Source of the DNA: Branchiostoma floridae
Taxonomy: Eukaryota > Chordata > Leptocardii > Amphioxiformes > Branchiostomatidae
Length of the DNA stretch: 64,000 bases
Reading direction: 5' to 3'
Assembly: GCF_000003815.2 (NCBI RefSeq)
Contig: NC_049992.1
Location: 7,402,493-7,466,492, forward strand
Shown: positions 17,601-63,760 of the stretch, piece by piece
How positions within the stretch are numbered: position 1 is the stretch's first letter
Layout of the letters: each line of letters opens with the position of its first letter
Program-made: the position numbers and the translations under genes
Notes under the pieces: generated by a model
Database searches by the model: none
What the model saw: the letters and a program-made list of their open reading frames with translations, nothing else
Told to the model about the DNA's origin: nothing

Positions 17601-20222
17601 TGTCTCCAGTCCAAAGTAAACCCGGGTAGGAGAAGGATTTAGTCGCTCGTCTTCGGCGAGATCAAAGGCTACCACGGGGCTCGTTCCCAACGTACTTTGC
17701 TCTGTCGGTTGTACTTCTGCCCAGTATAAATTTTCGTAAAAATCGTCCTCCTCTATGTGAGGAATGGTGAGCGTTCCGCCTTCTGGGATAGGACGGTCCT
17801 CTGGTTCTTCTTTTTGTGGAGGTTTTAGCAGCTTTCGATAACTAACAGAGAAAAGGGAAGTTACCATTCATTTGAATATTCACAGACGTAGTTTTCCCCT
17901 CAAATTTCCAAAATGAAAACGTAACTTTACGTTTGCTATTGAATATACGCCAATTTCTTGTAAGCAATTGGTAGGCATTTTGCCATGTTTGGAAATATAT
18001 TTGACATAAAAAAATTATCAGAAATGTCAACTTTCTTCCATCTTTCTCAAGATTTTTCTAATACTTACAGAATAGCCCGGTGCTGTATAGAATGCACGAA
18101 ATGAATGTTGTGCTTACTTCTCAAGTCTTAAAGTGCGATTTACTATTCTGAATTTTCCCTCAGAAACTCGTACTTTGATACAGTTCACGGAATTGGTTTT
18201 CTCCGTGGTGCTGAAACTGTTATCACACGTTATGTTACCGTGGTTTTACATTTTGTTAGTCGAACAGAGGCTGCTTTGTACGATCTATAGTATGGTCGAC
18301 ATTTTTGGAACGGCCAAAAATGCGCGCGGGTGTCTTCCAATAATAAAAAAAATCATTAGCTATATATTATTTGACAGTATATATATGGTGCTGTACCTGT
18401 ACGACGTTAAAAAAGAAATGCTTAGCTGCTAACCCCCCCCCCCCCCCCCCAAAAAAAAAACACGTACCTGTTGAAATTTGGAGGTTCTCCTACGTAAAAC
18501 TTAAACCATTGGATGGGGACGTTTGGCGCTCCTGGCGATTTGACTTGGAACTGCACCTCTTGTCCGGGCAGTTTGTTCATAAAACATGACTGAGCCCCCG
18601 TCTCGTTACATCTGCTTGGATGCGCAACAGCCAGGACAATGGGAGGGACTACAGATGAAAATGACAAGAAAACAGATACCTATAAAGAAAGAACTTAGCC
18701 GGTACAATATCATCTTGGTAGTCGTGATCTGTATTGATCTGTACGTGATCTGTACCTACAGAATTGATAAATCAGTTATGTTTTTACCCACGCAGCTGTT
18801 GCAACCCATACATATCTGTACGTACCTACTAAGTTGCTGCAACTCATATCTACCTATTCGTGTCTACATTTCATGTAATTCACGCCTATCTGTACGTACC
18901 TACTCAGTTGTTGTAACTCAGTCCTAAATTCATGTATCTACACGGTAGCTGCAACTCATGCCTATTCGTACGTGTTCCTACTCAGTTGTTATAGCTCACT
19001 CCCATCTGCACGTACCTACAGAGTTGTTGTAACTCACTTCTATCTGTACGTACCTACTCAGTTGTTGTAACTCACGCCTATCTGTACGTACCTACTCAGT
19101 TGTTGTAACTCACACCTACCTGTACGTACCTACTCAGTTGTTGTAACTCACACCTATCTGCACGTACCTACTCAGCTGTTGCACCTTACGCCTATCTGTA
19201 CGTACCTACTCAGTTGTTGTAACTCACGCCTATCCGTATGTACCTTCACAGTTGTTGTAACTCACCCCTCCTGTACGTGCCTTCATGGTTGTTGTAACTC
19301 ACTCCTACCTGTACGTACCTACTCAGTTGTTGTAACACACTCCCACCCGACGTACCTACTCAGTTTTTGTAACACACTCATACCTGTACGTACCTTCACA
19401 GTTGTTGATCCCGTCGCCCTGCCATCCCGGCAGACAGCGGCAGTAGTACGCCTGTTCCGTGCCGGGTGGGTAGACCGGGTCCCGCGCGCACACCGCCGAC
19501 TCGTGACACTCCAGCCCCACAGCTAGACATCGCTGCGCATCGGGGTCTGTGGAAAGTTTACATACATGTGCTTAAGGTCAAAAACATAAAACAGACAATA
19601 GCCAAATTCAAAGTCGCAAATGGGTCCGACACCGACTGTTGTACTGTGTGCGTTTTCCAGACGTTTGGCCACCTAGACGTTTTCCCCTAATCCTAGCCCC
19701 TAATATAAGAACATGCGACAGTCCTTAGAAGTTACGCTACAAATATAGGAATTTGTAGGAACTTCATAGACCAAAGAATTCTGCAGGGGAAGGTGAATCA
19801 TTCTAACGTCGATGGCGACAGGCGTACCTCTTAGCGGCGAAATATCATGATCCTATACATTAACATGTAACTTATATAACCGTACGTACCGCCTGGGGGT
19901 TTTGCTACGTCTCATAGAAGAACAGCTTTAAATTCAGCTGGCTTGGATCGAGATATGTGCCCAGTTTGACAGCCAGGAACGAATTATTTCTAGTAAAAGT
20001 TACTCACTAGCGAATAAACGTCACAACAACACCACAACAATAAACAATCAACAACTGTTGCCGTCCCGACATTCCCTTGTTCTAGTCCACCCAACCAAAA
20101 ATAAAGCGTCGTTTAAAACAATTTCTAACGCTTTTAACAACAACAACATTCTTACCGTTCTTTAGGCCCACAGATAAACCGACCGAGAAAAATGTAATGT
20201 AAGCCAGCGTCAAAACGTGCAT
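8586..20222 (-). CDS. Gene A: secreted EGF / Ig-like / cbEGF / TSP1x4 multidomain protein, 13 exons
   Basis: Exons in transcript order: 20222-20156 (ATG and signal peptide, MHVLTLAYITFFSVG), 19546-19394 (EGF), 18648-18468 and 17841-17591 (Ig-like 1), 17115-16975 and 16835-16698 (Ig-like 2, with VRWKKEG and DFGVYRA), 16383-16171 (part EGF plus cbEGF), 15589-15458 (cbEGF, DIDEC), 14462-14298, 13603-13433, 12967-12770 and 9341-9177 (four TSP1 domains with WxxW and six Cys), and 8665-8586 (probable end). All junctions are GT-AG. Every intron is phase 1 except the phase-2 intron inside Ig-like 1, and all split codons join without a stop, giving about 684 residues. The neat one-domain-per-exon, symmetric 1-1 pattern is the signature of exon shuffling. 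The make-up resembles hemicentin/fibulin-like matrix proteins, but I recognise no orthologue. The Ig-like domains lack the usual cysteine pair. A matrix or adhesion role is inferred. It shares a promoter region with gene B. Confidence 0.85.
9700..10167. repeat. Left 468-bp terminal direct repeat
   Basis: Identical by eye to 11081-11548. Contains gggtataaag near 9885, a possible core promoter. Confidence 0.8.
11081..11548. repeat. Right 468-bp terminal direct repeat
   Basis: Second copy of the 9700-10167 repeat. Preceded by gctctgtgaa, only weakly like a polypurine tract. Confidence 0.8.
11554..12769. repeat. Gene A intron with an internally duplicated AT-rich stretch
   Basis: The block at about 12296-12380 (aacaataaaaatcatcaaca ... 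aagtacac) recurs diverged at about 12655-12745. Next to it, at about 12610-12650, 'gattaaggagaaaatttta' then 'gactggctgatcg' resembles the exon 12967-12770 donor flank (gattgaaaagaaaattta, then actgactgaccg). This suggests an old duplication that included the splice junction. No gene is seen in the rest. Confidence 0.45.
13262..13423. mobile_element. MITE, family 'ctccaagcagatcct', copy 1
   Basis: Inverted ends: tctccaagcagatcctac ... gtaggatctgcttgga. Subterminal inverted blocks are gcataagctagcatcaaa and tttgatactatcttatg. It ends about 10 bp from the donor of gene A exon 13603-13433. Other copies lie at about 14090-14235 and 29098-29256. Confidence 0.8.
14090..14235. mobile_element. MITE, same family, copy 2
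   Basis: Begins tcttcaagcagatgctac and ends ggatctgctttgaga, with the same internal inverted blocks ('agtattaaagctggc' / 'gccagctttgatact'). Lies in the gene A intron downstream of exon 14462-14298. Confidence 0.75.
18430..18460. repeat. Homopolymer pair C(n)A(n)
   Basis: A run of about 18 C followed by 10 A, a few bases past the donor of gene A exon 18648-18468. Confidence 0.9.
18790..19385. repeat. Minisatellite of about 38 bp derived from the gene A exon 2 donor junction
   Basis: About 16 copies of a unit of about 38 bp (gtacgtacctactcagttg plus a variable 'taactcacgcctatct' part). On the coding strand each unit reads caacaactgagtag|gtacgtac. The true exon 2 end just beside the array (19394) reads caacaactgtgaag|gtacgtac. 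The array therefore multiplies the exon end together with its donor. Some units keep the exon-like 'cttcacagttgttg'. Confidence 0.85.
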
Positions 20223-20665
20223 CGTCCGTTACTTGTTTTCCATTTCTTGCCGTCGATACAGTCGTAGCAGGCGATTTCAGACGAGAAATGTAGTTGCTAC
20301 GGTACATACGCCGTTGCTAGGATACGCTTTGGAAGCGTTCTATTCGATAAACGGTTCTGGAACGAGGCATCCGAGTACAAAACTTCATTTGCAAGTTGTG
20401 AAATTTTAGCCAATGTTTTTTTTCTATAATAGTTACGTTTACGATTCACAAAGCGAAGACAAAACCTCGTACTTAGTCAAGATTACGTTTTCGCTCCGCT
20501 CTTTAACTGTGAGTAGCCAGATTCCGCATCTCAGCTTTGTTACGCCACAGCCGTTTGAATTTCTTGATGGAACGCCATTGACCGAATTTGGTTCCAGAAC
20601 GAGTGATGTTCCCTTGACTACCGCTAGAAACTGTGTGTGGGATGGATATGTAACACGCAGTTACT
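20223..20665. promoter_or_regulatory. Shared head-to-head promoter region of genes A and B
   Basis: 443 bp separate the start codon of gene A (20222, -) from that of gene B (20666, +). Both genes begin with a signal-peptide exon ending in phase 1. No TATA box stands out, so a TATA-less bidirectional promoter is inferred from spacing only. Confidence 0.5.
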
Positions 20666-23600
20666 ATGAAACTTTACCTGAGAACTGTTGCGGCGGCTTT
20701 GCTGGTGATTTTGCAGGTCAACTGTAGATATGTCCAGACGGCAGGAGGTATGGACTTAAAAACGTTTTCAGCAGTCAGTTTGCTCTATTCAATTTTCATG
20801 TTGCTTTCTCAAATCAACGTCTTCAAAACTGGTTCATCGTGAAATTTTCTTCTACTTCACCACAGATATAAACGTTTATGATTTTTACTATCACTGATAC
20901 ATTGATTTAATCTTGTAGAAATGTTAGTGACAATATAGATGCCTCTGTACTTTTTATTGTCGTCCGTTGCAGTACCGTTAGTCTGTGCTGTTGTTTGTTT
21001 GCTGTTGTTCAGAAAGATATTTTCTATTGTAACTCTATGAATCATAACAACAGTCTTCACCTCTTTTCACCTACGTATACAAAACGGAGGTATTTTTTCG
21101 CCGTGTCTGTTTCCGTTTCTGATATATATTGGCAATAACATAGACAGACTTTCAACCACCTTTAAGTTGTTGCTCACTTTCATTACATAACCATTTTAGG
21201 TGTACGTACTACGTAGGGTTCTCTCACAACTTATTTTCACAACGTCACTAGGAGTCGTCACTAGGAGTCTATATCTTATTTTTTCAGACAACGTTAACGT
21301 TAACTTGGATCCCCTTGCTGAAAAATACAAGACGGAAAATACGAACCACGTCATCAACCCAAGGGATGTTGCTGGTACAAACAGCAGACCAGTACGCCAC
21401 GGAAAAATAAAGCCAAGGTCACGTGAGCATTCAAAACTTCATCACAGAAGTAAGACAAGGAGAGGAACTCCACTTGAGGGCTCTCATTATGGACTGACGT
21501 CACCAGAGACGCAGGAATCACGTGACCACAAGAACCTAGAAGCACTTCTGACCATGATGAAAAGTAAGCGAGGAAGATTTGTTGAAAATTTGATAGAACA
21601 AAATTGCATGGTGGAAAAATAGTGGCGATTGGAATAGTATCTCCTTTCTGATTTTCAAGTATTGTAACTATAGATACAAGTCACAACAAAGACAAAACAT
21701 ACATGTGAAAGTAGAAGTTCGGCTTTTTCTCGCTTCTTGGTACAGTATTGTTATAAAAAGCCGTTTAATTGCACAACACATCTGCCAGCATATTTCGTGC
21801 AATTTATTGAACGCAAAACGAAGCAACTCAATTCCATCCTCAGATAAACCATCGCTTATGTCATTGGAATTGTATCTGAAATCTAATCACTAAACTGGTA
21901 TTCTGAACCACGCCTGAGATGAACAGAGAGAATGGGCCGCTGCAAAGACGTAATAATCATATATAACGTTATATCAAACGCTGCAAAAAGGCGTGAAAAA
22001 CAAGTCGGATTCAAGATCTACTTGGGCGTATCTTACGTTCAGGTGGGGATGTAGCTCAGAGGTAGAGCGCTCGCTTCGCATGTGAGAGGCCCCGGGTTCA
22101 ATCCCCGGCATCTCTAGAATTTCTCTTTTGCTTTTCACCGAAACCGCTGGACAACCAAGTCCAGTGTTAATCTATTTGTGAGGAAAAACACACTGGTAGC
22201 GTTGAAAAACGACAGACAACCAAGAACTTAATTGCTCAAGCGTTGATTTAATTGATGATGACAGTTTGTTCCCGAGACGTTTTAGTTTTCGGATGGCGGC
22301 TTTTATTTCGTCAAAGTTTCTTAGTATGTTCAGAGACATCATTTGCATGGTTGAATATTCGAATATATATCGGGTGTTGCACTGAGTATTTTCACTTTCC
22401 ATGTAAATCTAGATAGATCCACGTATATTGGCTGTCATGTGTCATCTCAGTACATGTGCGTAAAAATGCGTTGTGAGTCTTTGTGACTTAAATTTAAACG
22501 TATGTACTTTTGTACAGGTAACTTCATCAAAGACTCAAATAAACTTTACAATCTGAAGCTGAAGACCGCCCATTTCCGCTCGATTTGGAAGGCTGAATAG
22601 CACCTGCTTGTTGGGCAGCCTTGTCTTAGGCTACCAGTGTGTTTTTCCTCACAAATAGATTAACACTGGACTTGGTTGTCCAGCGGTTTCGGTGAAAACT
22701 AAAAGAGAAAATCTGGAGATGCCGGGGATTGAACCCGGGGCCTCTCACATGCGAAGCGAGCGCTCTACCTCTGAGCTACATCCCCACCTGGGTAAAACAA
22801 AACGTCGCCAAATGCTAGATGTTTTCTCTTACCTGTTTTGCACGCCTTTCATGTGGCGTTTGAATGTAACGTTATATCTTAAGTGTTACTGACGAAAGAT
22901 ACCGGATGGCTGTCTGAAACGCCTGACCGTTTCAAGATCATATTCAGTTGCTTGAGTAACTGCTTTCTGGTGTACTTAACTTGGTTGGGCACAAATGTAC
23001 AATGAATATCTTTACCAGTCTTCACTCTTTCATTTATTTCCCAGCGTATGGGGGAGACAACAGCGACAAGCAACTGGGTGGAGACTTCGAGGAGTGGACC
23101 ACGTGGGGCTCGTGGGGCGCATGCTCCAAGACGTGCGGACCGGGAATAACCGTCCGGATCCGAACCTGCTCCGGAGGGAAGTGCAGGGAAACGTCTGAGC
23201 TGGCGCAGCAGGAGTGCCGCCTAGCGGATTGTGGTAAGTCTGCACCAGCGTAACAGAAGCGCCTTCTAGCGGACTACTGTAAGTCTTGAAATCTTGAAAA
23301 ATGCCGCTCAGGCCGAATGAAAGCTCCTTGGATGTATCAAGGCTAAATCCTAAATAAAGGTCGAAAAAAAAAATTGCCAAGCTACCTAGCGGATTGTGGC
23401 AAGTTGGTCTGTCACTTGAATGGGCAGATTATATGGTATCTAAAGGTTGACAACGATGATAAGGATACTATATTAGGAAAAGCACACTGTTTCGGACAGT
23501 AAGCCATATCATATGGCAGGTTCTCGAATGGAATGACTCTCTAGACATTCATAAAATGGCCAGATGATTGAACAAACTTCTGCACACGAAAAGTGCTGCA

Positions 23601-24999
23601 GAAATTATCCATACTTAGTATTTTCAGAAACAAAATGTGCACAAACTGTTTTTCTAAATCTTTTTCAAACTGTCTTTTGTTGAAGTACCGATCTATTGGT
23701 ACCACATGGCTTTATTATAACAAGGATATTATGAATACCAAGTAGTCTCATTCTCATACTAGTGTACAGAGCCTCGCCTACAGCCTATTTATTGCAGATT
23801 TGGGGACTCTGCTACACCAAGCTGGGGTTTCCACTCTTGTGGATGTGGCCAATTAGAGAATGCAATGCCTAAATGTTTTCTTCAATAGGTAAGGCCTTAT
23901 CTGATTGACTTAACGTTAGTTCACCTTTATCCACGGTGTAAGAAAACACAACGGATTTAGGTTGCCCCGTGGATAAAGGTGAACTAGCGGTACAGCTGGT
24001 TAGAGGACGGGCACTCCAAAGTGGAAATCTCAGCCTACCAAGGTTTAGGCCCAGCGGGCTCTGCATAGAGGAATGAGTAGTCCAGAAGCTCATCTTGCCT
24101 AGAGTTGTCTGTATTTGCTTTTGCAGCGACCACTGCCAAACCATCCCAACCAGCAACAACCGAGGCACCATGTGAATATGGCATCCTTTGTGAGCAGGAG
24201 AGAATGTACAAATATCTGAAGAAGGAGGTGAAAGGTACATATGTAGTGAACACCTGAACACATTAATTGAATTTATCCAGCAATAGTATCATTTTGTATT
24301 TGTGAACTGTATCTTTTCAACCTGTCTTGTTGTGACCTGTACTTAGCCCGGTGTGGCAAAAGTGTGCAATAAAGGTCTTCATTCATTCATTCATTCATAT
24401 TTTTTTGTATCCGTTAAATGGTTGGGTATCTTTTCAACGTGTTTTGTTGTGACCTGTTCTTAGCCCGGTGTGGCAAAAATGTGCAAGAAAGGTCTTCATT
24501 CATTAATATTGGCCTTAAGTCTGCAGCATTATGCTTTCTCTGTCCATATCTGAGAATGATTATAAGAAAGTCTGACTGAGGACTGAAATCCAAGCTTACT
24601 TCCTGAGAATACTACAAGTAATTCCATTCTGATTTATGTTTTCAAGGTACACCCTTGATTTGCTTTTGATCTTCTTTTGACTAAACAAAGGTTCAAACAA
24701 ACAAAAGCACATACAGGTGAAAATCCCAAACTGACATAAAAAATTCATGTCTTGCAGAACTCCTTGAGGAAGATAGGAAGCTGCTCCAGACGACTAAAGG
24801 CGCTAATACCGAGCTCGCTGTGATCCTGGGTGGTACGGTCATCCTCATCCTGGGCATCATCTTGCTCTGTATCATCAGATGTGTCGACAGGAAGATGGAG
24901 GAAAACAAGAGAATCAAGAGGGAAGCCAAACGGAAACAAAAAGAGAAGGACCAAGTTGGCGTACCCTCAACTTCAAGGTCCTTTACATCTATGAAATAG
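20666..24999 (+). CDS. Gene B: single-TSP1 type I transmembrane protein, 5 exons
   Basis: Exons: 20666-20747, 21288-21563, 23045-23233, 24127-24234 and 24758-24999 (stop TAG 24997). All introns are GT-AG and phase 1, giving 298 codons. Order: signal peptide (LRTVAAALLVILQVNC), a basic linker of about 90 residues rich in R/K/H, one TSP1 domain (WTTWGSWGACSKTCG with six Cys), a T/P-rich stem with a CEYGILC loop, a short charged helix, one membrane helix (LAVILGGTVILILGIILLCI) and a basic tail rich in K and R (RKQKEKDQ), ending SRSFTSMK. No orthologue recognised. It is divergent to gene A, which has four TSP1 domains, so co-expression is plausible. A poly(A) signal AATAAA is at 25587. The exon-2 frame would also read through to a stop near 21620 if unspliced, but the donor gtaagc at 21564 fits the phase. 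Confidence 0.85.
22045..22116 (+). tRNA. tRNA-Ala (anticodon CGC)
   Basis: 72 nt fold into a cloverleaf: acceptor GGGGATG/CATCTCT (two G-T pairs), D stem GCTC/GAGC, anticodon stem CTCGC/GTGAG with loop TTCGCAT (anticodon CGC), T stem CCGGG/CCCGG with loop TTCAATC, discriminator A. The A box (TAGCTCAGAGG) and B box (GGTTCAATCC) are intact. No intron. A T-run follows within the flank. Confidence 0.95.
22714..22785 (-). tRNA. tRNA-Ala (anticodon CGC), inverted second copy
   Basis: Same 72-nt cloverleaf on the minus strand. It differs from the first copy at the acceptor 3' strand (CATCTCC rather than CATCTCT), which gives a stronger first pair. Both promoter boxes are intact. Confidence 0.95.
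24290..24515 (+). mobile_element. Tandem copies of a non-LTR retrotransposon 3' tail
   Basis: 'tgacctgtacttagcccggt' then 'gtggcaaaagtgtgcaataa' ends in (ATTC)n. A second copy about 105 bp later ends in attcattaat. A simple-repeat tail after a conserved 3' end fits a CR1/L2-type LINE or a SINE using that tail. It lies in the last intron of gene B. Confidence 0.6.
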
Positions 25000-27386: not shown

Positions 27387-27394
27387 TATACAGG

Positions 27395-27750
27395 CAGGGC
27401 TCGAAATTCATTTTGGGGATTAGGTGCACTGGTGCACCCAGCTAAAAAAATTGGGTGCACCAAAAAATTTTTGGGTGCACCACTTAGATTTAAATAGAAT
27501 GTCAGAAAAACCTAATAACAAAACTAAGTTACAAACTTTCAAATTCAAACTACCATGATGGACATTTTTATTATCTTTCTAACACTTAGATGTCAAGACT
27601 ATGATGTATACTAGCATACTTGATATCTTTACATACATAAACCTAAGAAAATATTTGGGTGCACCCTGTGCACCCACTGAATAAAATTGGGTGCACAGTT
27701 CCAATTTTGGGTGCACCTGGGTGCACATGCACCCAGTATTTTGAGCCCTG
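27395..27750. mobile_element. hAT-type MITE with exact 8-bp target duplication
   Basis: 356 bp with inverted ends CAGGGCTCGAAATT ... ATTTTGAGCCCTG. It is flanked by TATACAGG at 27387-27394 and 27751-27758. An 8-bp duplication and CAG-type ends indicate the hAT superfamily. The interior is built of gggtgcacc/ggtgcaccc palindromic blocks and has no transposase. Related copies: 47464-49356 (interrupted) and 55105-55507. Confidence 0.9.
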
Positions 27751-28604
27751 TATACAGGTATACACATGTACATACATCTTACTTAGTATATATTTTTGCC
27801 ACTTTGTTATGGTTGCAATTACTAATTGTGTTTGAACATATCCATCCTACACTTGCTCCTCTGATCGCTTCCTTGCTGAATAAAAGGTAGTCTAGCACCC
27901 ATCCCCATTTAAACGTTTGGACCTTACATGTATGTTTGTGCGTAGGGCTTTTCCTTTGATGTCATCTGCACCATGTTGGATAGAATACAACACGGTGTAT
28001 TCCATATCGGAATCCATCAGCCAAATTAGGGCCTTATTTACATAATCAAGGGTAAAAGTAAAAGAGGTTAATATCATCTAATTTACTTCATCATATGGAC
28101 TGGTACTTATAATTTTATAAGCACTTTATAGCTTTCAGAAACAAATCTACGGCTCGACCCATGGTATCCAGACCAAGGAGACCCACAAGTATTTACAAGG
28201 CCTGAACTTGATCCTAAAACCTGACATATATTTCCATAACAAGGGATTTCAGTTCAGCTTATCAAGAGAACCTTGCTCACCATAGACGTCCTCTAATTTA
28301 CTGCGACCAATGAAATCTTTTCATCATAATGATATGTGTAGTAGTTCAGCCAATAGTAGACAAGCTACACCACTGTCTAAGTTTTCATTCCTAACTAAGA
28401 GTATGCTTTATCGAACACATTCATATTTTCACGTTGAGACAGATGTACGTTGTGCGATGGGATAGGTCTACTATGGGCACTTTCACAAATGGAATCCTTG
28501 TCTATGATCATAAGTACTTCTTATAAGTTCTCATAAGTAGTAATAATCTTCTCCGTAGTAAGAATCTTCTCCTAAGATTGACTGTGAGTCTAAGACAGCC
28601 AACA

Positions 28605-31600
28605 TCACACCGAGATGGCCCCATCTGCAGTCTGCAGGATAGGAGTGGTGTCTCCATTGTCCTTTTCTTCGTCTTCAGCTCCGTAAACAAAGAACTGTAG
28701 AAATAACTGGGATAGAGTTAAGGATGGAAACGTATGGTGGAAGATGTTGTAGATATTATAGTTTCTTACGAATGTTTTCATAGGGCTATGTTAATTCAAT
28801 TGCATGGATGACATCCACATGTGTCTAGATGTGGGGCTGCCCACCCTCCGCGGGAAGGATCGTCTGACGGCCGAAGGCCATATTCGGCCCGTTTGAAATA
28901 GTTCGATTTACTCGAAGGAAGCCTGTGTGATACAACTAAGAACCTGTGTGATACGGGAAGTTATCACACGGTCCAAACACCTGTATCGAACGTTTTTGCG
29001 TCACAGGTATGACATAAAACAAGTTATCACCCAGTCCCAAACACCTGTGTTGACCTTTAGCGAGGTATGGCACAAGGTAATCTCTAGGCAAATTTACCAG
29101 ATGTACCAGTGGCATAAGATAGTATTAAAGCTGGCTAAGGAGTATAGCTGGCCAAAGGGAGTCATCAGCCTTCGATAGCCAAACACACTCCTAGACTGGC
29201 TTCACTCCTTTAGCAGCTTTTGATACTATCTTATGCTATGGTAGGATCTGCTTGGAGATTAGGCATGAGGAAGGATACAGTTGCGTCAAAGGTCATGGTG
29301 CCGAGACTGCCGACCAGCCAGGGGAGGTGGCGGATGATGAAGTATCCCTTGGTGCTTTGCAGCAGGATCTGGAGTCCATACAGCAGGTTCCCCAGGATGG
29401 CTAGAGAGAACATCCAGATAGACAGGCCTTCTGTCGACTTACGCTTCCACTGGGGGGAGGGGGGTAGGAGGCAAAAGGAAAAATAAACAGTTCAATTCAT
29501 GATACAGTATAAGTAAATAAAGAGAGGGCTTGAGCGCAGTACATAGATACATAGCTGATAGAATTATGGATGGCCAGAGAGAACATCCAGATAGGCTTCT
29601 GTTGACTTACGCTTCCACTGGGGAGGGGGGCAAAAGGAAAAATAAACAGTAAAATTCATGATATAAGTAAAAAAAGGGAGGGTTTGAGTGCATTACATAC
29701 AGCGAGAATACAGTGCTGATAAAATTATGGATGACTAGGGAGAACATCCAGATAGACATGTACAGGTGGGGAGGGGGGCGATTGGGGTAGAAGGAAAGAT
29801 TAAAGCTGAAAACATTTCCGTGTGACATAAGATGGACACCAATATGGAACCAAGCAAGCAACTGTCACATCAGACAAAAGACAGTGTTTGTATGTAAGCA
29901 AGTCTAAATTCAGCAAAGAGGAATTTAGCATGTGATGTGTCTTGACATATTGCAAGAAAGAATTGCAATTCCGAGCCCCATGCAGCTTTTTTCAGTACTG
30001 CAGCAAAAATTACGGCTTTTGTTTTGTCTTAGGGACTTACTACGGTCTTAGATTGCTCTAAAAGAATTACCATAAAAGCGTGCCCCCAAGCAGCTACCCT
30101 TCAACACTGCAGGGGTGTCTTTGTCAAAGACTTTGAACAGGATAACTGAAGTGTTCTTTTTGATTTGCATCAAGATATATACAAATGGAAGCTGTTATGC
30201 TTCATCTTACAAAATGTTGTGCTACGTTAAGAAGAATGTTTGATGAGGAAAGTACATTTGCACACTTACATTTTTGTAGATTTGAGGCATACGAGACCCG
30301 AGATACAGCACAGAGGAGCCGATACCGACGGCATAGCCAGCATCACTCTCGGCATCCTGTGACATTAATAAACCGTCATATTCAAAATGCATTTTTCAGA
30401 CATTTGAACTTCGAAAAAAGTAGTACACACACACACACAAAAAAAAGTAAACATATAATGATTATTCACCAAATTAAAGAACTTACCCATCTTGATGATA
30501 TAATTGGAGGAAGTAAATATTGCAGCAAAAGTTTTTAAGTTGGTAAATAATAAAATATGGCTTTAACTGTATATCATCTTCCAAAGTTCAACCTACAACC
30601 CTGTGATAAAACAATGAACGCTGCGCTTATCAATTTGTCTTTTTCAAGTTTCAAATCTTCCCATACTATCAAATTTTTGACTGTGCTAAAAATAACGATC
30701 CAGATTGTCCATTACAAATTTTTGACCAATGATAGCGTGTCAATGACAAAAAAAATACACAGTTTGACCAATGAGAGGATGGCTGCATATTTACATTTTG
30801 TGTGTTTATTTTGTATCTGTCTATATTTTACCAGGATGGGACTACAGTATTAGTCTATTGTGTCTCAATAATAAAAGGTATCAATTACAAAGAAAAGACT
30901 TACAGGAAAGAGAGGGTGGTTGAGAAGGGATCGTCCGGAGGCGTGTTTGACGGTTGCCATGGCGGCGTCCCGTTGCCATGGGAACAGGCCGAAGACGAGG
31001 CCGTTCAGTGACAGCATCAGACAGCACGAGAGGACAGCATTGTTGACAGAAAAATCGTCACCGCCAGGAACAGCTAAACTCAAACTTTTATCTGTGAGGA
31101 AAAAGAGGAAAACTATTTCTGACAATTAAAATTTATTCACAGAATTCCACCCGCCACACATATCCTACTGTCTAAAGCCTATGTCACATTTCCAAACCGG
31201 GGTCCAGCAGGGCTGTTTGCAGAAACGAAAGATTTAAGTTTATGCCAATAAATTTGCACAAGGCATGCTGTTGGATCATTTTTAATTCGTTTTGTGTGCT
31301 TTTATCAGTCATGATTAAAAAAATGTATCAAGAGATCAAATCCAGAAATGAAGAAATTGTGTTATACACTGTGAAGAGCTGGCTGTGTAGTCATTTGATC
31401 AACCTTCCTGATCACTTAGATTTCAAATAAAAATGAAAGTACAAATGTAACTTTTTTTTTTACCAAACAAATTGTTATTTGCACACTCGCATCGGTTCTG
31501 GGGTTCTCAGAAGATATTATTCAAATAATCGAATCAACGTGGCCTATCTTATACAACAAAGTATCAAAACCAGACTTACTTTTTCTCCTGTTCTTTATTA

Positions 31601-34195: not shown

Positions 34196-35823
34196 GGTTT
34201 CTTAAATGTCTTGCAGAGGTCACAGAAAATCTTTGTCCATTCAACAGCTCCAGACAACTACTTGTTCTTTGACCCTGTTGACCCAGTTGTTGACAGTTTA
34301 CTCCAATCCAGGGCCTTGCCCCCTTCCTGGATAAGCAAGAATAAAAACAATATGTAAATAAGGCCAAATGAATTAAAAAACTTGTTCAACAGGTTTTTCT
34401 GCCTTGGAAAAATACTTTTATTCTACTAAAGTGAGATAGAAATATACAATTTTCAATTTGTAACTGAGACAGAAAAATATCATTTATGCAAATTAAAATC
34501 TAACTTGCACACCAATAAATGGCTCAAATTTAGTTCTTGCTGCCTTTTGACATCAGGAAAATGTGGACGTAAATCATGCAAATGAGGGACAAACTTTACA
34601 TAATTTATGAGGAAAAGATACAATAACCTTTCTTGCTTATACATGTATATGACTTTCATTACTTTTTTTTTGCTTTGGGTGAAGAAGGCAATAAACTGAT
34701 ACAATTTATGCAAATGGGGGACCATATTCATCAGTGACAAACAATTATGAAACATCATCTGAAAAATATTGTTTGGTCAAATTGGTGACAGTATGAGTTC
34801 ATTGAACTCCAGTTCAATTTTGATCTAATCCAGGCCTCAGCTTTCTCAAGCCCAACACAAACACAGATACAGTTATCAAAACAGACCTGGGAAGGATGAG
34901 CCTCATCAGTCATAAAAACACAGCTCAGTTGGTGGTATCCAAACAAGTGGTTTGTAATCTGCTGACCCTGGTTTGATTTCCGGGTGTCGACATGTTTTTT
35001 TTTTTTCTGTTCCTACTCGCCCCTCTGAATTGTTACGTTGGTTCCCACACCGGCCCTGTTAGGAACAGGCTAGAAATGTGCCACACAGTGAGTAACAGGC
35101 TAGCGGATGTGCCACACTGTGAGTAACAGGCTAAGATGTGCCACACAGGGATGTCGATCTCGGGGATTCAAGGACGAATCTTGCAAAGAAATGGGGGAGT
35201 TGTGTATTAGAGGCGGACTCAAGTAGCGTCAAACTTAAACCGGAATCGGCTGATCAGCCTTTTCTAGCGCAGTGGTCTTGCTGCTGGGTTGTAATCTGTA
35301 TGTTTGGGTGTCGGCATGTTTGTTTGTTTCTGTTCTTACTTCTTCTTCTTCTCCATCTTACTCACCCCTCTAAATTCTTACAAATTGGAAGGACGAAAGC
35401 TTTTTATTGTGTCTTGTCACAAAGTTGCCATACCCAGTTTTTAAGAAACAACAATCGAAATGAAACAAAAATTGTTACCATGACAAAAACATTTACAAAA
35501 CCATGATTATGGAAAGTACATTTGAGGATTTTACAGTAGTTTCCTTAGATGTAGAACAAGTAATTGAACTGGGTAGGCCTTGCTCCACATTCACCACTAT
35601 GTCCAGCAATTTGCAATTCTTTGATAAGCAAGATACAACTTCACAAGTGGACATGCCTGCATAATCATGAATACTTAATTAATTACAGAACCTCCCTGGT
35701 GTAAACAAGAATGGTGCTAATCTGCCACATAATTGGTCAACAAACTTGTTTTTCCCATCAATTATGACATTGAACAAAATGGCCAAAACGTCATCTAAAA
35801 TTGTCACAAATTATATTTATACT

Positions 35824-36034
35824 TACAGAAAATCATACATTTTGATAGCCCTCTTGATCTCAGCCCTCTGCTTATAATTTCGGAACGGAAGTCGAAAAAT
35901 ATTTGATAACTTTTTGGGGAACAGCTGAAAAACAACACAGCAAAGCAAGCAAAAACGCCGGCTTTCTTACCTGACAAACAACGCCGACGATCGCCAACAG
36001 TTCCAACTGTCCGAAACAACCTGACTGTAGTCAT
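35824..36034 (-). other. Probable noncoding 5' exons of SLC66A1
   Basis: On the minus strand a donor gtaagaaag follows about 35970, an acceptor tgtttttcag precedes about 35925, and a strong donor gtaagtata follows about 35824. A plausible acceptor (cctctgcaag) lies a few bases before the SLC66A1 ATG at 34195. No conserved protein is seen; an ATG at 36034 opens a short frame into the first donor. Confidence 0.45.
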
Positions 36035-36126
36035 AAAAACATTATTGATCTACTATTTTACGATTTAAAGCATATCTTGTGACCTTTGAAGGTGTCAGTG
36101 GTGATGAACATCCGCCATTACTGATT

Positions 36127-54600: not shown

Positions 54601-57600
54601 GCGAGCTCCTATGGACATTATTAGATGAAATACTACACAATTTTTAGGAATGTTCGCAGGTAAATGAGTCCCGTGTAATGGTCTTGTGGATTCTCACCTA
54701 AAAATGTAGACTTGCTAGTGATTATGGAGTTCTGACAATCAACATATTTAGCAGAAAGTTGCAACACCTGACTTGTAGAAAGATAAGATGGGAAAGTCCT
54801 GCAAAGTCAAGCCTTCCGTGGGAGGATTGGTTGGTGTCCCACGTTGTGGGTGGTGTTGGGTGGTACGTCCTTGTGACTGTGTGTACTGTTTGTGTGCCCC
54901 TCTTATGCATGACAGCCGGGAATGGGCAGACACATGCAGGTAGCTCTCTTCATATATTTGCACACTCACTGGCTCACTCCTCACACTATTGCCTTATTTT
55001 ATACACACACAAAACAACTATAGTTAGACCCGGCTCGAAATACATGTCTGTTAGCTGCAATGCGCGGGACGAAAATTTAAAGATTGCATGTTACAATTAG
55101 ATACCAGGGCTTGAAATTCATTTTTGGGAATTTTTGGGTGCACCACATAAAATAGAGTAGAATATCAGAATAACCTAACTGCAAACCTACTAGTCTGTGT
55201 AACACAAACTCCGCTGTCCAGGGCTCTAACTCGGCGGATGTTTGGCGGGCTGCTATAAGCGAGATTTAATCAGGCTACAAACCTACTAAATTAGTAATTT
55301 GAACGGCGCTCTTTAGAAAACGGAAGTACTATGACAGTCATTTTATTATCTTTCTAACACATAGATATGGTGTTTACTTAGTATACTGACATCTTAACAT
55401 ACATAAGCCTCTGAAAATATTTGGGTGTACCCACTGAAAAAAATTGGGTGCACAGCTCCAATTTTGGGTGCACCTGGGTGCACAAAACCCCAGTATTTCG
55501 AGCCCTGGATATGTAGAATAAATTGTGCAACATGATTTTCATTCTTCGAAATGGTTCAGGCTGCAAAGTTGCAAGGAGTTACAAAGTCATATAGGATGAT
55601 GCCGTAAATCGTGGTAATTTTTTTTCAGTGTTTGTGTGCTATGGTATTGTTTAGACTGCCAGCGTAGAACACTGAAAATCTCCTTTCCACTTTTACTGCG
55701 ATATTAAATGTCTGTGAAAAATGATTATTTGGTATTTGGAAAAGTTGTTAATATTACAAGTGAATATTTTAGATAACTGACAAATATTGCAGTTAACAGA
55801 CAAAAAATTTTTTGAGCCCTGAAGACATGAACATGCATATAACATTGCATTTTTTGGCATCCATTTTAGAATGCTAGATAGTCCATCTTTTCAAGGAAAC
55901 ATGTACTTTCTAGGTAGTTTCTAGGTAGTTTGCCTTAGAACATACAGGCATTTGAATTACTACTACTAGTACTACATGCTGTATCTGATCAGATTGTAAC
56001 CAAAATCCCCTTGCTTTTAACCCACTGCACCACAAGGGAGGTCCGAGACAGGTAAACATGAAATTTACGCATCTTTTTACGCTCGTTTCACTACAACCTA
56101 CCACCTTACTCTAGCTCCCTTCCAATGAATCGCATCAGTTTTTCTCCTTTGTTCTAAGACTCCTTTAAGAATAATCAGAAAAATGTCTTTTCTAGAATCG
56201 TTGATCTATTATTATGTTTTGGCTCTGTTTTGAAATTGGAGAGTGTTGGAACCAAGGAAATCAATCGGTGTGTCCTTAATTGTCATCTGGACCATGATTG
56301 GTTCTGATGGAAGAATCATTACTCACACCCATGCAATGTAACTAATCACAATTCATCTTACATCAACAACTGTTACCCTTATATGCCAACTGTTTGATTT
56401 CCAGTATGTAATTTGAATTGATTCTTAAAAATTCTTTGCTCTTTTTTTCTCTCTTCTGATTCCAAAGCACCAAGGTCCGAGACAAGGCCACCAGGTAAGC
56501 TGCGTCTTGTTTAAAACAGTTTCTCTCTATTTTTACTCTGTCACAAGCCAGAAACAATCTTACAACAAATAAGATGCAGGAAGATGTATTTCTTAGAAAA
56601 GCTTTTAGTCAATGCCTCAGGAGTGGATCCTTCTCGTATTGTTGTTGTGTTGCAATTGTGTGTTGACATATTCATGTCAGAAACCTACTAGAAAAATGTT
56701 TATGACGGTTAGACATCCAGGTAAACAATATTCGAATACAATTCAATCTCCACAACTGAAAAAAAGCGGAGATGTACTTCTGGACATTCTGAGTGACATC
56801 CATCACTCTTCTTCAGCGTCACTAGAATGAAATGGCAAAAACAGTTGAATACAAGTACATCTTACTAGAAAATGTTCAACCCTGCAACCATTTTTTCTAG
56901 TAAGATTTACTTGTAAGTTGAATTGTTTCTGCCATTTCATCCTAGTGATGCTGAAGAAGAGTGATGGATGTCAGTCGAAACGCCCGGAAATATATCTCCA
57001 TTTTTATCCACTTATAGAGGTTGAATTGTATTTGAACACAGGACTGTGTATTACTTTTAGGCCTCATCATCTTTAACTGGGACCTGCTAGAAGCTAATGA
57101 GAGAAGGCCATGGCCTGGCTGTGGTACTGGTGCGGAACGATATGATGATGATGATGATTTGAACACTGAAAAGATTGTTTTTTTATGTCTGTGAAATGAA
57201 GGTCTTAACGTTCGTAAATTTTCCCCCTCCCCAGCCCTACTACAGAAGTTCGGGTCCCACAGCCAATGGCAGAGTGCCGTACCAAACGGGGCCGAGATAT
57301 AGCGCTCCCCAGACGGTCACGTCGGCGCCGCCCCCTCAGATGTTCCAGCACCCGAACCAGATGATTCCTGGCCATGTCCCGCAGCAAGCGTACCCACAAC
57401 CCACGCTGTTCATACCCCAACAGGTAAGGCACGGTTGTTTCTTGTAAGGCCATGTTGATTGGATACACTAGAAGCCTGTTAATTGCACAACGGATAACCG
57501 CACACTTCTGTTTATGGCACGGAAATCCCAAAATCCGAAACCAGTGCAGTCCAGCTGGATAACTTCGTATTATTGCACAATCTGGATAATTGCATGAAAT

Positions 57601-60600
57601 ACTCTGGCAAATGGGGTGTGCAATTAAACAGCTTCTACTGTATATGGATGACATCCTCTTGTAATCCCAAAACTGATGATGCAAACGTGGGCAGAAACAA
57701 AAGGTTGGCAAAGAAAGAAGTTGCAAACACAGAATATGGTATAGGTAACAATACAATTCTTCGTTTTTATTCTTTTACTTATCTTCTTGACTTTGGCATT
57801 GACTTTGGCTTTCTGATACAAGTCTGTTTGCCAATATTTTTACCAACGTGTGGCATATATTTGCTCATTTTGCTGCTGCTTTGCATGATTTACACTATGG
57901 TGAAAAACATTTCTTTTGGAAATGTGCGAATGTCATCCAGTCCATATAATGGAATCACCAAGGCCTGAAGTAGCGGTGGTTAGTTGAGTTCTCCATTGGG
58001 TGGCTTGGGAAACCCATGTCACTCAGATATGTCTGAAAGCGATCAAAAATTTTCATGAGAAAGTTTCATTATTTTTTTTCAAAGAATTGCAACAGGAGAT
58101 ACAAACTTCTGTATTAAAAGAAATTACATTTTTAGGAGTTTCCATGCAATTTTGATTGTCAGGATTTTGGAATTTTGTGTTTTGTCATCAAAAAGAGTAT
58201 TTTGATAGGGTGAGATATTTTTCCATCCATTTCAAATCTTTCCCTTTTTCAAAGGAGAACCTAAGACTGCATGTACAGGTATAATTGTGCATTGTTTGTA
58301 GCATGGCTGTGTTCTTTGTTACTTGTCTTTCTTACTTTGCTGCTCTAATGTCCATGTCTGTCACTGTGTGCTTCCTTAGACAATAACGGCTCATTTAAAC
58401 TTAGGACCAGATCACAAAATATTTCACTCGCTTTTAAGATTCAGATTCAGTTTTATTTCAGTTGGCCAGGCATGTGACATATTCAATATTCACATGAAAT
58501 GCACCAAGATTTACAACATTCAAAGAAGACTTAGCTAAAATATAAGTACACATATAGTTTTAAAAACTTGATGCATGCCGCTCATAATTTAGAGTGACGA
58601 CAGTAGGTGAAACGTAGCTTACTCCAGCTAACACACTACAAAACATTTGACTAGTTGGCTGAAATGGTGTACTAAAACTTGCAAGTCCTACACAAGTATT
58701 TTTCCTGGCAATGGTCCTCATACAGTCATAAGAGCCCTTCAGAAACCTGTACTTGAAAAATGTTGGGGCAAAAGAGCATGGTCTGGTTGCAAAATGGCAT
58801 CTAGAATGATGATTCAATTGGTGAATTCTGTATGACACGTTGTGTGTGAATACACTATTTCCAACTGACTAGAACAAGCCATTCCAGTTTTCATACACAC
58901 ACCTACCTCTAATATAATAATACAGTTTGAATCTTGACCGAACCTCCATAAAAAGTGCATGGTGAGTGAGACAGAACTAGAGTGTGAATTCTGCTTTGTT
59001 GCCACCTTTGCAGACTCTGTGAATCTTGAGTTAATGTCAACGTTAGTCCAACATGTTTGCAGAGCTAATTGCCTGACAGTGTGAGTGTTCCTACCTGTGT
59101 GTTGCTATGCTGTGTGCTCTGCTATGCTTTGCTCTCGCCTGTCCGCTGTACTAACTCCCAAACTCCGTACTCAGTACCCCCCTGTATTGCAGTATCGTCC
59201 GCAAGCCATCCCCCATTTCCAACCACCACAGCCGACCATCCAGAGCGCCACGGCGTACTTCCAGCCGGCGCCACAGGGCCCTGGACCGGGCGGCACCCAG
59301 GCCACCTACAGGACAGGCGGGGAACAGCTACAATGTAGGCACCAATACTGCTTATATGTGGTGTATTATTACCTCTAGTTTAGAAGGTTGTGTTTTTGTG
59401 TTTTTTCTAAGGACCGGGGAACAGCTACAATCAGGCTTTTAGCTAGGATTTTATTATAGGGAGTCCAAATTTATTGTTGAGTCGCGGTAAGTAACTGTTG
59501 TAGGGGGGTCCGGGGACATCCACCTTCCATGGTGCAGAGTTTTTGATGATTTTAAGTTTAAAAAGTGCATTCTAAGGTATCCTAAGAGGTAAAAGTACTG
59601 TTACAGAGGTCTCAGAAGAAGACTGTGACCACAGATGACCTGGTAGCATCCCTGGTCAATCAGAATTTCATGCCTGTCAGAGGATTTTTTTCCCAGTGTA
59701 AGGGGGTCCAGAGCGTCAAATTTCTTGTTATTCTAAGAAAAGTGCGTCCAGATGAAACGTTGACGCATGCCTGGCTAAAAGCCTGACTACAATGTAGGCA
59801 CCAATACTTAGTCTATTTATCTGCAGTGTGTTATCACCTCTAGTTTAGAAGGTTGTGTTTTGTGTTTGTTATAAGGATAACTTTTAAAACTTTTTATGCA
59901 ATATTGATAATCAGATACAATATTTAGGCAACAGTGCAGTATCTTGGTGGAACAGTATCTTTTGCAGTTTAAAGTTTTTGGTTGAGTCTGGAAGTTATTT
60001 GCTTCCTTTTTTTCTCTGCCATGTATTTGTTTTGTTCAGTTGTAAGTATGTCACGAGGTGACAGCGTGTTAAGTCACTGTTAACCCCTGGTGTGGGGAGT
60101 GTCACCCGAGTAATTGGGAGCAGATGTACAGGGGTTTGAGAAGGGACACGTATCAGGGTGGGGGATTCCAGGAGAGACACCGACAGGGTAGGACGTGTCC
60201 ACTTGATCTCTGAATAAAGTCATCATCTCCGCCACATCATGCCTCTGTCCTGATCCTTGACTTGACTCACTCCCTGCCACCGTGACATCTGGTAGTACGG
60301 CTGGGGTGAGTCAAGTTCAACGGACGGGACAGGGGCAGACGAGAGCCGTTCAGAGACGTAGGACAGAGTGCCGATCCGGAGTACCGAGCCCGCGGGGTTG
60401 ACCAGCAAGTCCAGCAAGGGGCAGGCGACAGGCGAGCGTCGGTGGCCGAGGCGAGCGAGAGGGAGCAGCAGAGGAGGCGTCGTCCGAGAGATGCAGGCCG
60501 ACTTCTACTCTGACAGAGAGCCGGCCCGGAGTGCCTGCGGCAGTAACGACCTGCGGTAGCGGCAAAGAGAGCGGCAGTGGCCGGGGCAAGGCTGGACAGC

Positions 60601-63530
60601 CACGCGGCGGGCGGGATGGTGACCGGAGAAAGAGCAGGCCCGGGCAGAGAGTCTATACAGAGAGAGACACAGGAGGAAGGTCGGTGGGCTCGCATAGTAT
60701 CATTGGCGCACCGTGCACACCGGCCTAGTTCTGTTACTTACTTTGTTCAGCTTTGTTGTAGTAGTTTTAGACTTGTTAGAATGTAGGCAACCAATGTTAG
60801 ATAAATTATGTCAGTGCTATCAGGAATACAGTATAGATTAGCTGAGCAGCGAGTATCATGCGGACGTGGCGGAAGTCAGTGGGGGGGAGTCACCAGATAG
60901 GTCAGTTTAGATGTAAGATAGACATATAGAGATAGAATTATAGATATACATGTGGGTTTTACTCCCCGGGATAGTAATGTGTAGTTCGTATGATGTTACC
61001 ATATAGCAGGTCAGGGGTGTCCGGCGTTTCATGTAGTTGTCTGAAGGTCTATTTGTTGTGTTTATGTGTTGAGGAGATATTAATGTTTAAGTCGAGAGGT
61101 AGAGGAGAGAGCAGCGGAGTTGAGTTGAGACGTAGATGAGGTGTCGAGGTTAGAAGTCCGGTGTTATGTGTATGTGCGTCAGTGGTTGCTTTGCGTTGTC
61201 CTGTCCGACCCCAACCTCTACAGGCGTGATCCCACAGCACGACTCGGCAGACAACGATGCCCCGAGGGCCCGACGTCGTATAGGAGTCGCCGTCGTGGGA
61301 GCATCTAGCAGGGAGGCCTCTGTTGACAAGACAAGCCTCTTCCCGACGGGCAGAGGAGTTCCTGTCGTTTCCTGTGGTTCCGGGACACACCCGGAAGTGC
61401 GCAAGCCGGCCGCCGAGGAGGAAGTTGGCGCGGGACACCTGGCAACCATTTGATGAACTTTTGTTGTTGTAAATTGTTATGTTTTTGTTGTTGTTTTGTA
61501 AATGTCGGAATGTCGCTGACCTGCATTGTAGAAGAATTAGTAGTATTGTATAGAAGTATGTAAAAGAAAAGCGGTGATGATCTTCCTGATAATATGTCCC
61601 GGTAATCAATAATTGATAACAGCTGTCAACAATGTGGAAATTGTTTTAAAAAATGAGGGGTGAGGTGTCACGAGGGTGTCACGAAGTGACAGCGTGTTAA
61701 GTCACTGTTAACCCCTGGTGTGGGGAATGTCACCGGACTAAGTGGGACCAGATGTAGAGGGGTCGGGAGAAGTGACACGTATGAGGGTACGGGGATTCCA
61801 GCGAGAGAAGCCGACAGAGAAAGACGTGTCTACCAGAGCTCCGAATAAAGTCTATCATATCCGCAACATCATGCCTCTGTCCTGATCCTTGACTTGACTC
61901 ACTACCATGCCACCGTGACAAGTACACCCCCTAGGCCAAGCCCATGTAGACAACCTAGCAGCAGAGAGGTTATATCAGGACCTGTTCCCCAGATTTCCAG
62001 AGTTACGGGTACAGACACCTCAACCGTTCCATCCGGTTCCCCAGATTTCCAGAGTTACGGGTACAGACACCTTAACCGTTCCATCCCGTTCCCCAGATTT
62101 CCAAAGTTACGGGTACAGACAACACAGCAGCAAAGAGAAACCTTAACCGTTCCATCCCGTTGCCCAGATTTCCAGAGTTACGGGTACAGACACCTTAACC
62201 GTTCCATCCCGTTCCCCAGATTTCCAGAGTTACGGGTACAGACACCTTAACCGTTCCATCCCGTTCCCCAGATTTCCAGAGTTACGGGTACAGACACCTT
62301 AACCGTTCCATCCCGTTGCCCAGATTTCCAGAGTTACGGGTACAGACACCTTAACCGTTCCATCCCGTTGCCCAGATTTCCAGAGTTATGGGTACAGACA
62401 CCTTAACCGTTCTATCCTGTTCCCCAGATTTCCAGAGTTACGGGTACAGACACCTTTACCCTTTTATCCCGTTCCCCAGATTTCCAGAGTTACAGGTACA
62501 GACAACGCAGCAGAGAGAAACCTTAACCATTCTTTCCCGTTCCCCAGATTTCCAGAGTTATGGGTACGCGCCCCAGGCCCAGCCCATGCAGACGACCCAG
62601 CAGCAGAGGCCGCCCTCGATGCCCACAGGACAGATCACCATGATCCCTTCCCAGCAGCCCCCACAGCCGCCTCAGCAGGTAACCCCGCCTCTCGTGAGTC
62701 ACCGTTTTCCTTGTTTTATCTTTTGTTTTTTATTTTAGAGTAGAAATTTTGGACATTATTCTTTGTTGACCTTTCTTTCTGGTTTTGGTTGTCACAGACT
62801 GGTTTTATGACAGAATTCAGTTTGATTTAAAGAAGGAAAGACATGATTTTCATTGTTAGATTCCAACAATATTTTCAGATGCATGTTCCATAAGTTTTTT
62901 TTTGAGGATTTTTCAAAATCAACTTTCCTGTTGAAGACTTTTCTTTGAAAGTGACCTGTCCCTGACCCAATTTATACTCGTTATCTGAAAAGTCGAGAGT
63001 TGGATATGATTATACATTTTTACGAGTTTCTGTACTAATAGAAGTTACAAGATATGGTCCATGCATACAAAACTGCCCCCTGGCATCAAGGTAATGAACT
63101 GCAACCATTGGTTGACTGAGATACACAATGCATCCTTGACAAGACAGTTGTACTTTTTGTTGTCTAAATTTGACTGAAGGAAGAAACGCAAATTGGGGGG
63201 GGGGGGGGCGTGGATAGTGTTAAAGATTTGCATTTGTATGTTTTGTTCTGCCTTCCTGAGTTATGACAAATGTAGTCTTGGGCTATAACAGGCTCATAAC
63301 CATGACATTTCTTTACAAGTGAATTTTGTTTCTGTTTTTCTCCATCACAGCAACAACAGACTCAGCAGCAGCAACAGCAGCTGCCCCAGAAGAGGGAGAG
63401 GAAGATCATCAAGATCACAGACAACACGGGGCGGGACGTGACAGAGGAGATCCTGAGCGGGGGCAGTGGGAGCAGTAACCCCACCCCACCCAACTCGGGC
63501 AGGTCAAGTGCCACAGCCACACCGCCGCAG
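36618..63530 (+). CDS. EIF4G: Eukaryotic translation initiation factor 4 gamma, N-terminal part, 3' partial
   Basis: Proposed exons: 36618-36735 (MSLKQGKNSTVSPGPQQIQV...), 51375-51445, 53427-53624, 56468-56494 (27-bp microexon), 57235-57423, 59193-59334, 62548-62678 and 63351-63530. The gene continues past the window. From 51375 on, all phases join; the first junction fits if the donor is A|gtaaac at 36736. The protein is Q/P-rich. The diagnostic segment is in the last exon: LPQKRERKIIKITDNTGRDV followed by TEEILSGG, the stretch after the PABP-binding region in animal eIF4G1/3. APPPQMFQHPNQMIPG recalls the PABP-binding region. In the family, eIF4G scaffolds eIF4E, eIF4A, eIF3 and PABP in cap-dependent initiation; the eIF4E-binding and MIF4G domains should lie downstream. 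Intron 1 is about 14.6 kb. Eight 3-18 kb stretches of repeats and three junction duplications lie in its introns. Confidence 0.9.
43230..43429 (+). other. Candidate alternative first exon/promoter of eIF4G
   Basis: A local GC- and CpG-rich patch in an AT-rich intron, with an open frame from 43201 ending AATGCGCG|gtaaac (donor at 43430). It leaves phase 1, exactly as the exon at 51375 needs. An ATG at 43423 would give a start MRGPEDYHQP. eIF4G genes of other animals do use several promoters. The evidence is composition and phase only. Confidence 0.35.
45676..45965. repeat. Tandem repeat, about 100 bp x 3
   Basis: Units start 'gcttcaaaac' at 45676, 45775 and 45876. Each contains gctagaaataaag and ttacagtaatagt; they are about 80-85% alike by eye. 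Confidence 0.85.
47464..49356. mobile_element. hAT-type MITE interrupted by a nested element
   Basis: The ends cagggctcgaaat (47464) and atttcgagccccg (49356) belong to the 27395-27750 family, inverted in order. The family interior resumes on both sides of 47611-49158. Confidence 0.85.
47611..49158. mobile_element. 1548-bp nested DNA element with TA target duplication
   Basis: Terminal inverted repeats CAGTGAAACTTGTCTAAG ... CTTATACAAGTTTCACTG. TA is on both sides (47609-47610, 49159-49160), as for Tc/mariner-like insertions. Subterminal blocks of about 125 bp repeat about three times (48650-48990: 'aaaacacaagcc', 'cgatatttc', 'gaaaatgacgcagt'). Two short frames (47856-48110, 48231-48527) do not resemble a transposase, so it is probably non-autonomous. 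Shorter copies of the same end (cagtcaaacctg) occur near 13013 and 13744. Confidence 0.8.
51830..52340 (+). pseudogene. Duplicated exon-like ORF of unknown origin in an eIF4G intron
   Basis: After tttcttccag at 52005, a frame runs to TGA at about 52266 (NLELDLLKNIIDTKLLKSSQ ... LLDKLGIRQAIF). Its 3' half plus flank (about 160 bp) is also at about 51830-51995. Its 5' half is at about 54405-54580 with the frame broken. The amino-acid pattern looks coding, but I cannot name a family. It may be an exon of a domesticated or old mobile gene; splicing into eIF4G would truncate that protein. Confidence 0.4.
53711..53985. repeat. Interspersed repeat, second copy of the 6236-6480 family
   Basis: Runs from 'tatgtcatacctgggccgcg' to 'ctcgggtgggtatgacat', collinear with the copy in the PEX10 intron but diverged. 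Confidence 0.75.
55105..55507. mobile_element. hAT-type MITE, third copy
   Basis: Ends cagggcttgaaattca ... gtatttcgagccctg and ggtgcacc blocks match the 27395 element. About 100 bp of other sequence lies in the middle, and no clear 8-bp duplication remains. Confidence 0.8.
56725..57040. mobile_element. Long foldback element
   Basis: Arms of about 140-150 bp around a centre near 56884: 'catccatcactcttcttcag' and 'ctgaagaagagtgatggatg', 'atcttactagaaaa' and 'ttttctagtaaga'. The ends read ttcgaatacaattcaa / ttgaattgtatttgaa. A related arm is at about 27130-27235. It is noncoding. Confidence 0.85.
59335..59875. repeat. Duplicated eIF4G exon end with an inserted MITE
   Basis: The exon 59193-59334 end and its donor (ggggaacagctacaat|gtaggcaccaatac) plus about 65 bp of intron are repeated directly after. 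The second copy is split by a MITE at 59431-59786 and resumes with tgtaggcaccaatactta at 59793. Confidence 0.85.
59431..59786. mobile_element. 356-bp MITE with 6-bp target duplication
   Basis: Inverted ends TCAGGCTTTTAGCTAGG ... CCTGGCTAAAAGCCTGA. CTACAA flanks it at 59425-59430 and 59787-59792. No ORF of note. Confidence 0.85.
60049..60287 (+). repeat. 5' LTR
   Basis: 239 bp, TGTCACG ... CGTGACA, contains tgaataaagtc. Confidence 0.85.
61677..61920 (+). repeat. 3' LTR
   Basis: 244 bp, collinear with 60049-60287 with scattered substitutions and small indels. Confidence 0.85.
61925..62547 (+). repeat. 52-bp tandem array of an eIF4G exon acceptor junction
   Basis: 'cag|atttccagagtta' recurs with the exon-like start at 61993, 62045, 62097, 62168, 62220, 62272, 62324, 62376, 62428 and 62480, before the true exon at 62548. 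The step is 52 bp except for 71 and 68 where longer units retain 'acagcagc'-type exon sequence. Each unit keeps a pyrimidine tract and AG. The first 40 bp (ccctaggccaagcccatg...) are a decayed copy of the inner exon. Confidence 0.95.
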
Positions 63531-63599
63531 GTAGGAACTCAGTCATTCACTCTAGTGTCTTAAACTTGTATCTGTATGAAGTTCATGTGTTTAATGCCA

Positions 63600-63760
63600 G
63601 TTTTAAGAGCCCAACTCGGGCAGGTCAAGTGCCACAGCCACACCGCCGCATGTCCGAACTGCAACTACATTCCTGATTTGGTCATCCTCTCTAATGTCTA
63701 GAAATTGTATCTGTATGAAGCTCGTTTGTTTCAAGCCAGTTTCAATATTCTTCATGTTAT
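63600..63760. repeat. Partial copy of eIF4G exon 63351-63530 end and intron start
   Basis: 'cccaactcgggcaggtcaag' through 'cacaccgccgca' recurs at 63609-63650. The GT of the true donor (gtaggaac) appears as tgtccgaac, so the copied donor is weakened. The following intron is also repeated (attgtatctgtatgaag ... gccagttt). Confidence 0.9.

Follow-up and report, generated by a model that had tools for sequence, protein, structure and literature searches.

Does the tandem copying of exon-intron junctions at this locus of Branchiostoma floridae come from a process directed at exon edges, or from repeats that happen to cross such edges? The stretch of DNA analysed, called the window below, is 64,000 nt long (C14:7402493-7466492; NC_049992.1, assembly GCF_000003815.2). 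Among its genes are eIF4G, identified from PDB matches, SLC66A1, identified from a PQ-loop match (Pfam), and gene A, which shows TSP1 and EGF matches. Five exon edges in the window, three donors and two acceptors, are repeated in tandem together with their splice site. We consider it probable that these arrays are amphioxus mirages, a name for minisatellites in which every unit extends across a splice junction. The exons concerned and the repeats at their edges are listed here.

19394..19546, minus strand: EGF-like exon 2 of gene A, with the donor and the 3' end of the exon in repeated form (match to Pfam EGF_3 at E 0.00097, short of the family's cut-off)
18785..19407, minus strand: probable mirage array at the donor of gene A exon 2, 16.4 copies of 38 bp (TRF), 16 pieces of about 38 bp when split
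29234..29449, minus strand: coding part of the last SLC66A1 (PQ-loop) exon (Pfam PQ-loop, E 1.6e-9)
29395..29755, minus strand: probable mirage array at the acceptor of the last SLC66A1 exon, period about 161, 2.2 copies (TRF)
59193..59334, plus strand: eIF4G exon, with a second genomic copy in L004
59318..59877, plus strand: 97-bp unit containing the exon 59193-59334 donor (eIF4G), in two copies, the second interrupted by a MITE-like insert
62548..62678, plus strand: eIF4G exon with repeated acceptor, with copies in L004
61984..62566, plus strand: probable mirage array at the acceptor of eIF4G exon 62548-62678, 11 copies of 52-71 bp
63351..63530, plus strand: eIF4G exon with the KRERKIIKI..EEILSG peptide (PDB 1lj2_C, E 0.0084)
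63489..63745, plus strand: unit of about 121 bp containing the exon 63351-63530 donor (eIF4G), in two copies

The gene A exon and the first two eIF4G exons were read from the sequence. No Pfam match was found for the three eIF4G exons, and no PDB match for the last SLC66A1 exon.

The units contain an exon end, its splice site and intron sequence, and donors and acceptors are both hit. The sequence-only reading had proposed about 16 copies of 38 bp at the donor of gene A exon 2, and 16 pieces were indeed recovered at 18785-19407; by reading, an exon-end-like piece is present in every unit (16/16) and is followed by GT in 13 of the 16. For the SLC66A1 acceptor, three copies had been announced: two do contain the exon start, while the third is only partial (by reading). 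The three eIF4G edges named there were all found multiplied. The donor of exon 59193-59334 lies in the 97-bp duplication with its split second copy, the acceptor of exon 62548-62678 occurs in the eleven copies expected, with CAG kept in 11/11 (by reading), and the end of exon 63351-63530 stands in two copies 121 bp apart, the donor of the second, at 63610, being decayed. The involvement of donors and acceptors in several unrelated genes (gene A, SLC66A1 and eIF4G) was likewise borne out. A weaker case at gene A exon 11 was not upheld, as the repeat search in 4700-18700 yielded three families tied to no exon edge, two of which lie in an intron next to a TSP1 exon (12303-12739) and the third at 13803-13872.

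Other repeats and inserts were seen in the window. The array at 2464-2787 (minus strand) falls within a long LRR-protein ORF and not at an exon edge; it is an in-frame 126-bp repeat with a tyrosine motif in the tail of this protein. By reading, no clear exon adjoins the arrays at 35064, 45672 and 48699. A stretch of about 490 bp (9693-10179) recurs 1381 bp downstream with >90% identity. The MITE-like insert inside the eIF4G donor duplication (59432-59786) terminates in inverted sequences of 17 bp, is flanked by a short repeat and is presumably hAT-like. An LTR-bearing insert at 60049-61920, in the eIF4G intron directly upstream of the acceptor array, has LTRs of 239 and 244 bp and AGTA on both sides. 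The window arrays alone are insufficient to decide on chance.

The eIF4G gene continues downstream of the window into L011 and L012, where two further acceptors are repeated, one in 2 copies and the other in 7. At C14:7353-7384 kb (L004-L008) are found a second eIF4G copy, rearranged and inverted, and a partial third copy. The copy number of exon-edge repeats differs between paralogous edges, paralogs being the level at which the variation was compared. The same eIF4G exon edge is present in 8 copies in L008 and in a single one in both L007 and L012, and the L012 acceptor with 7 copies has only 1 in its L004 counterpart. The 11 copies of the acceptor at 62548 compare with 6 in paralogous sequence (spread over two exon copies), and the one intact and one split copy of the donor at 59334 with 6. 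With paralogous edges of 1 and 8 copies, the skipping of decoy sites and intron gain become directly testable.

At the scale of the genome, we counted 15134 occurrences of the donor word CAGGTRAGT vs. 7039 of its reversal, and 1900 cases of three spaced copies vs. none reversed. Since 67 of the 100 rows among the matches listed for these triples belong to one dispersed family of about 51 bp (by reading), the counts of CAGGTRAGTB (next base not A) were used instead. This word gives 144 + 83 = 227 spaced triples vs. 0 + 0 for its reversal, with 21 unit types in the 100 matches listed (by reading). The one-base control CAGCTRAGT, with 6584 single sites, gives 188 triples, which represent four unit types in the 100 matches listed, one of them dispersed. 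For the acceptor word, 21 + 18 = 39 triples were found vs. 1 + 2 = 3 reversed, corresponding to 5 arrays. The tandem excess of AAG/GTRAGT donors is much weaker than that of CAG/GTRAGT donors, with 34 triples vs. 11 reversed and 11396 single sites vs. 12407 reversed; fewer of these sites may be real donors, because the word is no commoner than its reversal. Two dispersed families were seen along the way. In L050 (C1:29239500-29241700), a foldback-like element has inverted arms that are arrays of the 51-bp unit, with donor- and acceptor-like words, and a 47-bp unit (CAGCTGAGTGGGTA..) forms another dispersed tandem family in the genome.

A word was taken as clustered if it recurred on the same strand no more than 200 bp away; the places considered were the first 100 of each listing, on one chromosome. 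CAGGTRAGT was clustered at 9 of 55 listed loci (two of the nine are probably one array), in a listing that is not an even sample because 90 of its 100 rows are forward. Clusters were fewer for CAGCTRAGT (3/96; Fisher P = 0.009 vs. CAGGTRAGT) and absent for the control TGARTGGAC (0/100, by reading; P = 6e-5 vs. CAGGTRAGT), and AAGGTRAGT was clustered at 3 of 94 listed loci (by reading).

Similar arrays adjoin coding-like sequence at many other places in the genome. Twenty of the 21 CAGGTRAGTB unit types were fetched (the C7 family was left out) and one was masked, leaving 19 readable arrays. Up to the first exact donor, 13 of these 19 reach a coding score of at least 8, a threshold chosen after the scores were seen, compared with 4.8% of random positions (n = 18504) and 7.5% of AGGT sites (n = 2219); six of the 19 score below 4. 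Single CAGGTRAGT sites are the better background and none of them passes (0/4), but with only four such sites the exon test shows arrays at donors and not a preference for donors. Seven of the 13 passing exons could be named by Pfam or PDB (TALPID3, PDCD7, Na_Ca_ex, ribophorin I, dynein heavy chain and, weakly, BAR and BACK), while seven have no Pfam match; three of the six unnamed exons (L038, L039 and L041) have no PDB match either, and in L038 the exon apparently ends one copy earlier. For the acceptor-word arrays (n = 5), an open exon-like frame follows the array in three and precedes it in two, by reading and without a control; one corresponds to STT3A and the other four have no Pfam match. 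Among 12 arbitrary stretches (L013-L024), one, L024, has an NDK exon whose donor is repeated over about 2.2 kb. A search for a kinase family as the source of exons was dropped, the matches listed being mostly single-frame whole domains.

The direct test of exon-edge overlap gave a mixed result. The sample covered 274 kb and included the eIF4G neighbourhood, a region not randomly chosen. Of its 35 arrays, 7 coincide with a crudely called exon edge, against an expectation of 6.1 if array length is used (P = 0.40) and of 2.7 if unit length is used (P = 0.011). Of the seven, L008:5932 looks like a coding repeat and the one in L004 is a paralog; two arrays, one in L024 and one at 61984, also escaped the crude exon calls. 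The 12 arbitrary loci contain 14 arrays, none of which overlaps an edge, for 1.3 and 0.5 expected. The sequence-only reading had suggested either a local process starting at exon edges or a genome-wide source of decoy splice sites and new exons. In favour of the former, CAG/GTRAGT is more often in tandem than two control words, but AAG/GTRAGT is much less so and the edge test is equivocal: a mutational process with exon edges as its specific target is unproven. As for the latter, the word counts for donors and acceptors and the fetched arrays support a genome-wide supply of decoy splice sites, from which new exons might arise.

The structure of the units suggests how such arrays could form. 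The exonic part of the repeat measures 12-85 bp in all 13 passing exons, and 8 of 21 array periods are multiples of 3, i.e. there is no frame bias. Donors of the form CAG/GTGAGT are affected more often than others. A longer exon-end copy lies beyond the far end of the array in two of the eight fetched (L053 and L054), and a longer copy is also present upstream of the eIF4G acceptor array; a long duplication therefore seems to come first, with a shorter unit expanding inside it. Under the proposed mechanism, a tandem duplication would cross an exon edge, and slippage or unequal exchange would then expand a shorter unit within it. Splicing would still take place at the copy joined to the complete exon, the remaining copies being intronic decoys, and for this reason the array would be tolerated, while duplications within exons would be eliminated by selection. 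An unusual overall folding of the units was considered and rejected, the fold z-scores of the 21 units not differing from those of other arrays (P = 0.62).

Ordinary minisatellites, spread everywhere in a repeat-rich genome, might cross some exon edges by chance, the exonic ones being hidden by selection, with no process aimed at edges. We regard this explanation as possible, although somewhat doubtful: the CAGGTRAGT clustering at listed loci (9/55 vs. 3/96 and 0/100 for the two controls) and the 227 CAGGTRAGTB triples against none reversed oppose it, whereas the array-length null of the edge test (7 overlaps vs. 6.1), the many arrays away from visible exons and the weak excess of AAG donors fit it. 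The excess might also be a property of the word CAGGTGAGT, possibly in combination with CACCTG close by, and not of exon edges as such, which we judge rather unlikely. GTGAGT occurs in 18 of the 21 donor-array units (by reading), and 9 of the 21 contain CACCTG, whereas of 157 CAGGTG sites outside arrays only 2 have it within the next 40 bp. The combination CAGGTGAGT..CACCTG gives 154 + 147 vs. 7 + 2 reversed in the genome and is in tandem at 10 of 37 listed loci, C1-C3 (by reading). Against this, all three window donors differ from CAGGTGAGT, a word-only reading is at odds with the existence of acceptor mirages, and folding does not set the 21 units apart. Moreover, CACCTG lies at the repeat joint in several arrays (by reading), and may therefore be a result of the array and not its cause. 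A stronger version, in which the amphioxus 5' splice site is a hotspot of minisatellite birth, with CAG/GTGAGT donors, above all those with a nearby CACCTG, tandem-duplicated far more than other sequence and giving a standing supply of decoy sites for new exons and introns, is put forward here only tentatively.

An assembly artefact is very improbable. Although PMC3087553 mentions a mirage aberrantly assembled in the draft used there, its globin cases are backed by trace data and by RT-PCR of splicing; here, the copies are not identical (matches of 77, 80 and 85% for the three arrays measured by TRF) and one repeated unit contains the MITE-like insert. Even less credible is a transposable element carrying splice-like words. 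The dispersed 51-bp family, which forms the foldback-like arms in L050, would account for its 67 of 100 listed CAGGTRAGT triples, but when a following A is excluded, 227 vs. 0 triples remain, with 21 unit types in 100 listed. The reading of the arrays as mirages, with units that span a splice junction, is the one retained.

Mirages are known in the amphioxus genes Adh3 and TnC, the globins BflGb6 and BflGb9, and PGBD5, and passages of PMC3087553 and PMC3902484 describe them as tandem repeats over a donor or acceptor and part of the exon, with AG/GT kept in many copies and a variable copy number. Lengths that are unstable between haplotypes or cells, and splicing that stays normal, are further traits of the kind. 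PMC3087553 suggests that mirages may be more widespread and that new introns could arise through them; PMC2632668 counts tandem repeats per scaffold and mentions that VCBP3 introns contain incomplete exons together with splice sites. Our literature search found no genome-wide survey of exon-edge repeats in amphioxus. The kind is thus already in print, and what is added here is more member genes and the frequency of splice-site words across a single genome. Should mirages prove common, amphioxus would be a test bed for the disregard of intact decoy strings by splicing, and would also suit the study of intron gain via tandem duplication.

Models of intron gain through tandem duplication have reportedly been put forward by Rogers and by Gao and Lynch in 2009, as cited in PMC3087553. 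Such models have in common with our arrays a duplicated segment that carries splice signals, but no new intron is seen here. Like the known mirages, the window repeats span exon-intron boundaries, 5' and 3' alike, and keep the AG/GT signals in many copies (13/16 in gene A and 11/11 in eIF4G). Unlike those published, they concern other genes (eIF4G, SLC66A1 and the EGF/TSP1 gene), with several arrays per gene and a genome-wide word count.
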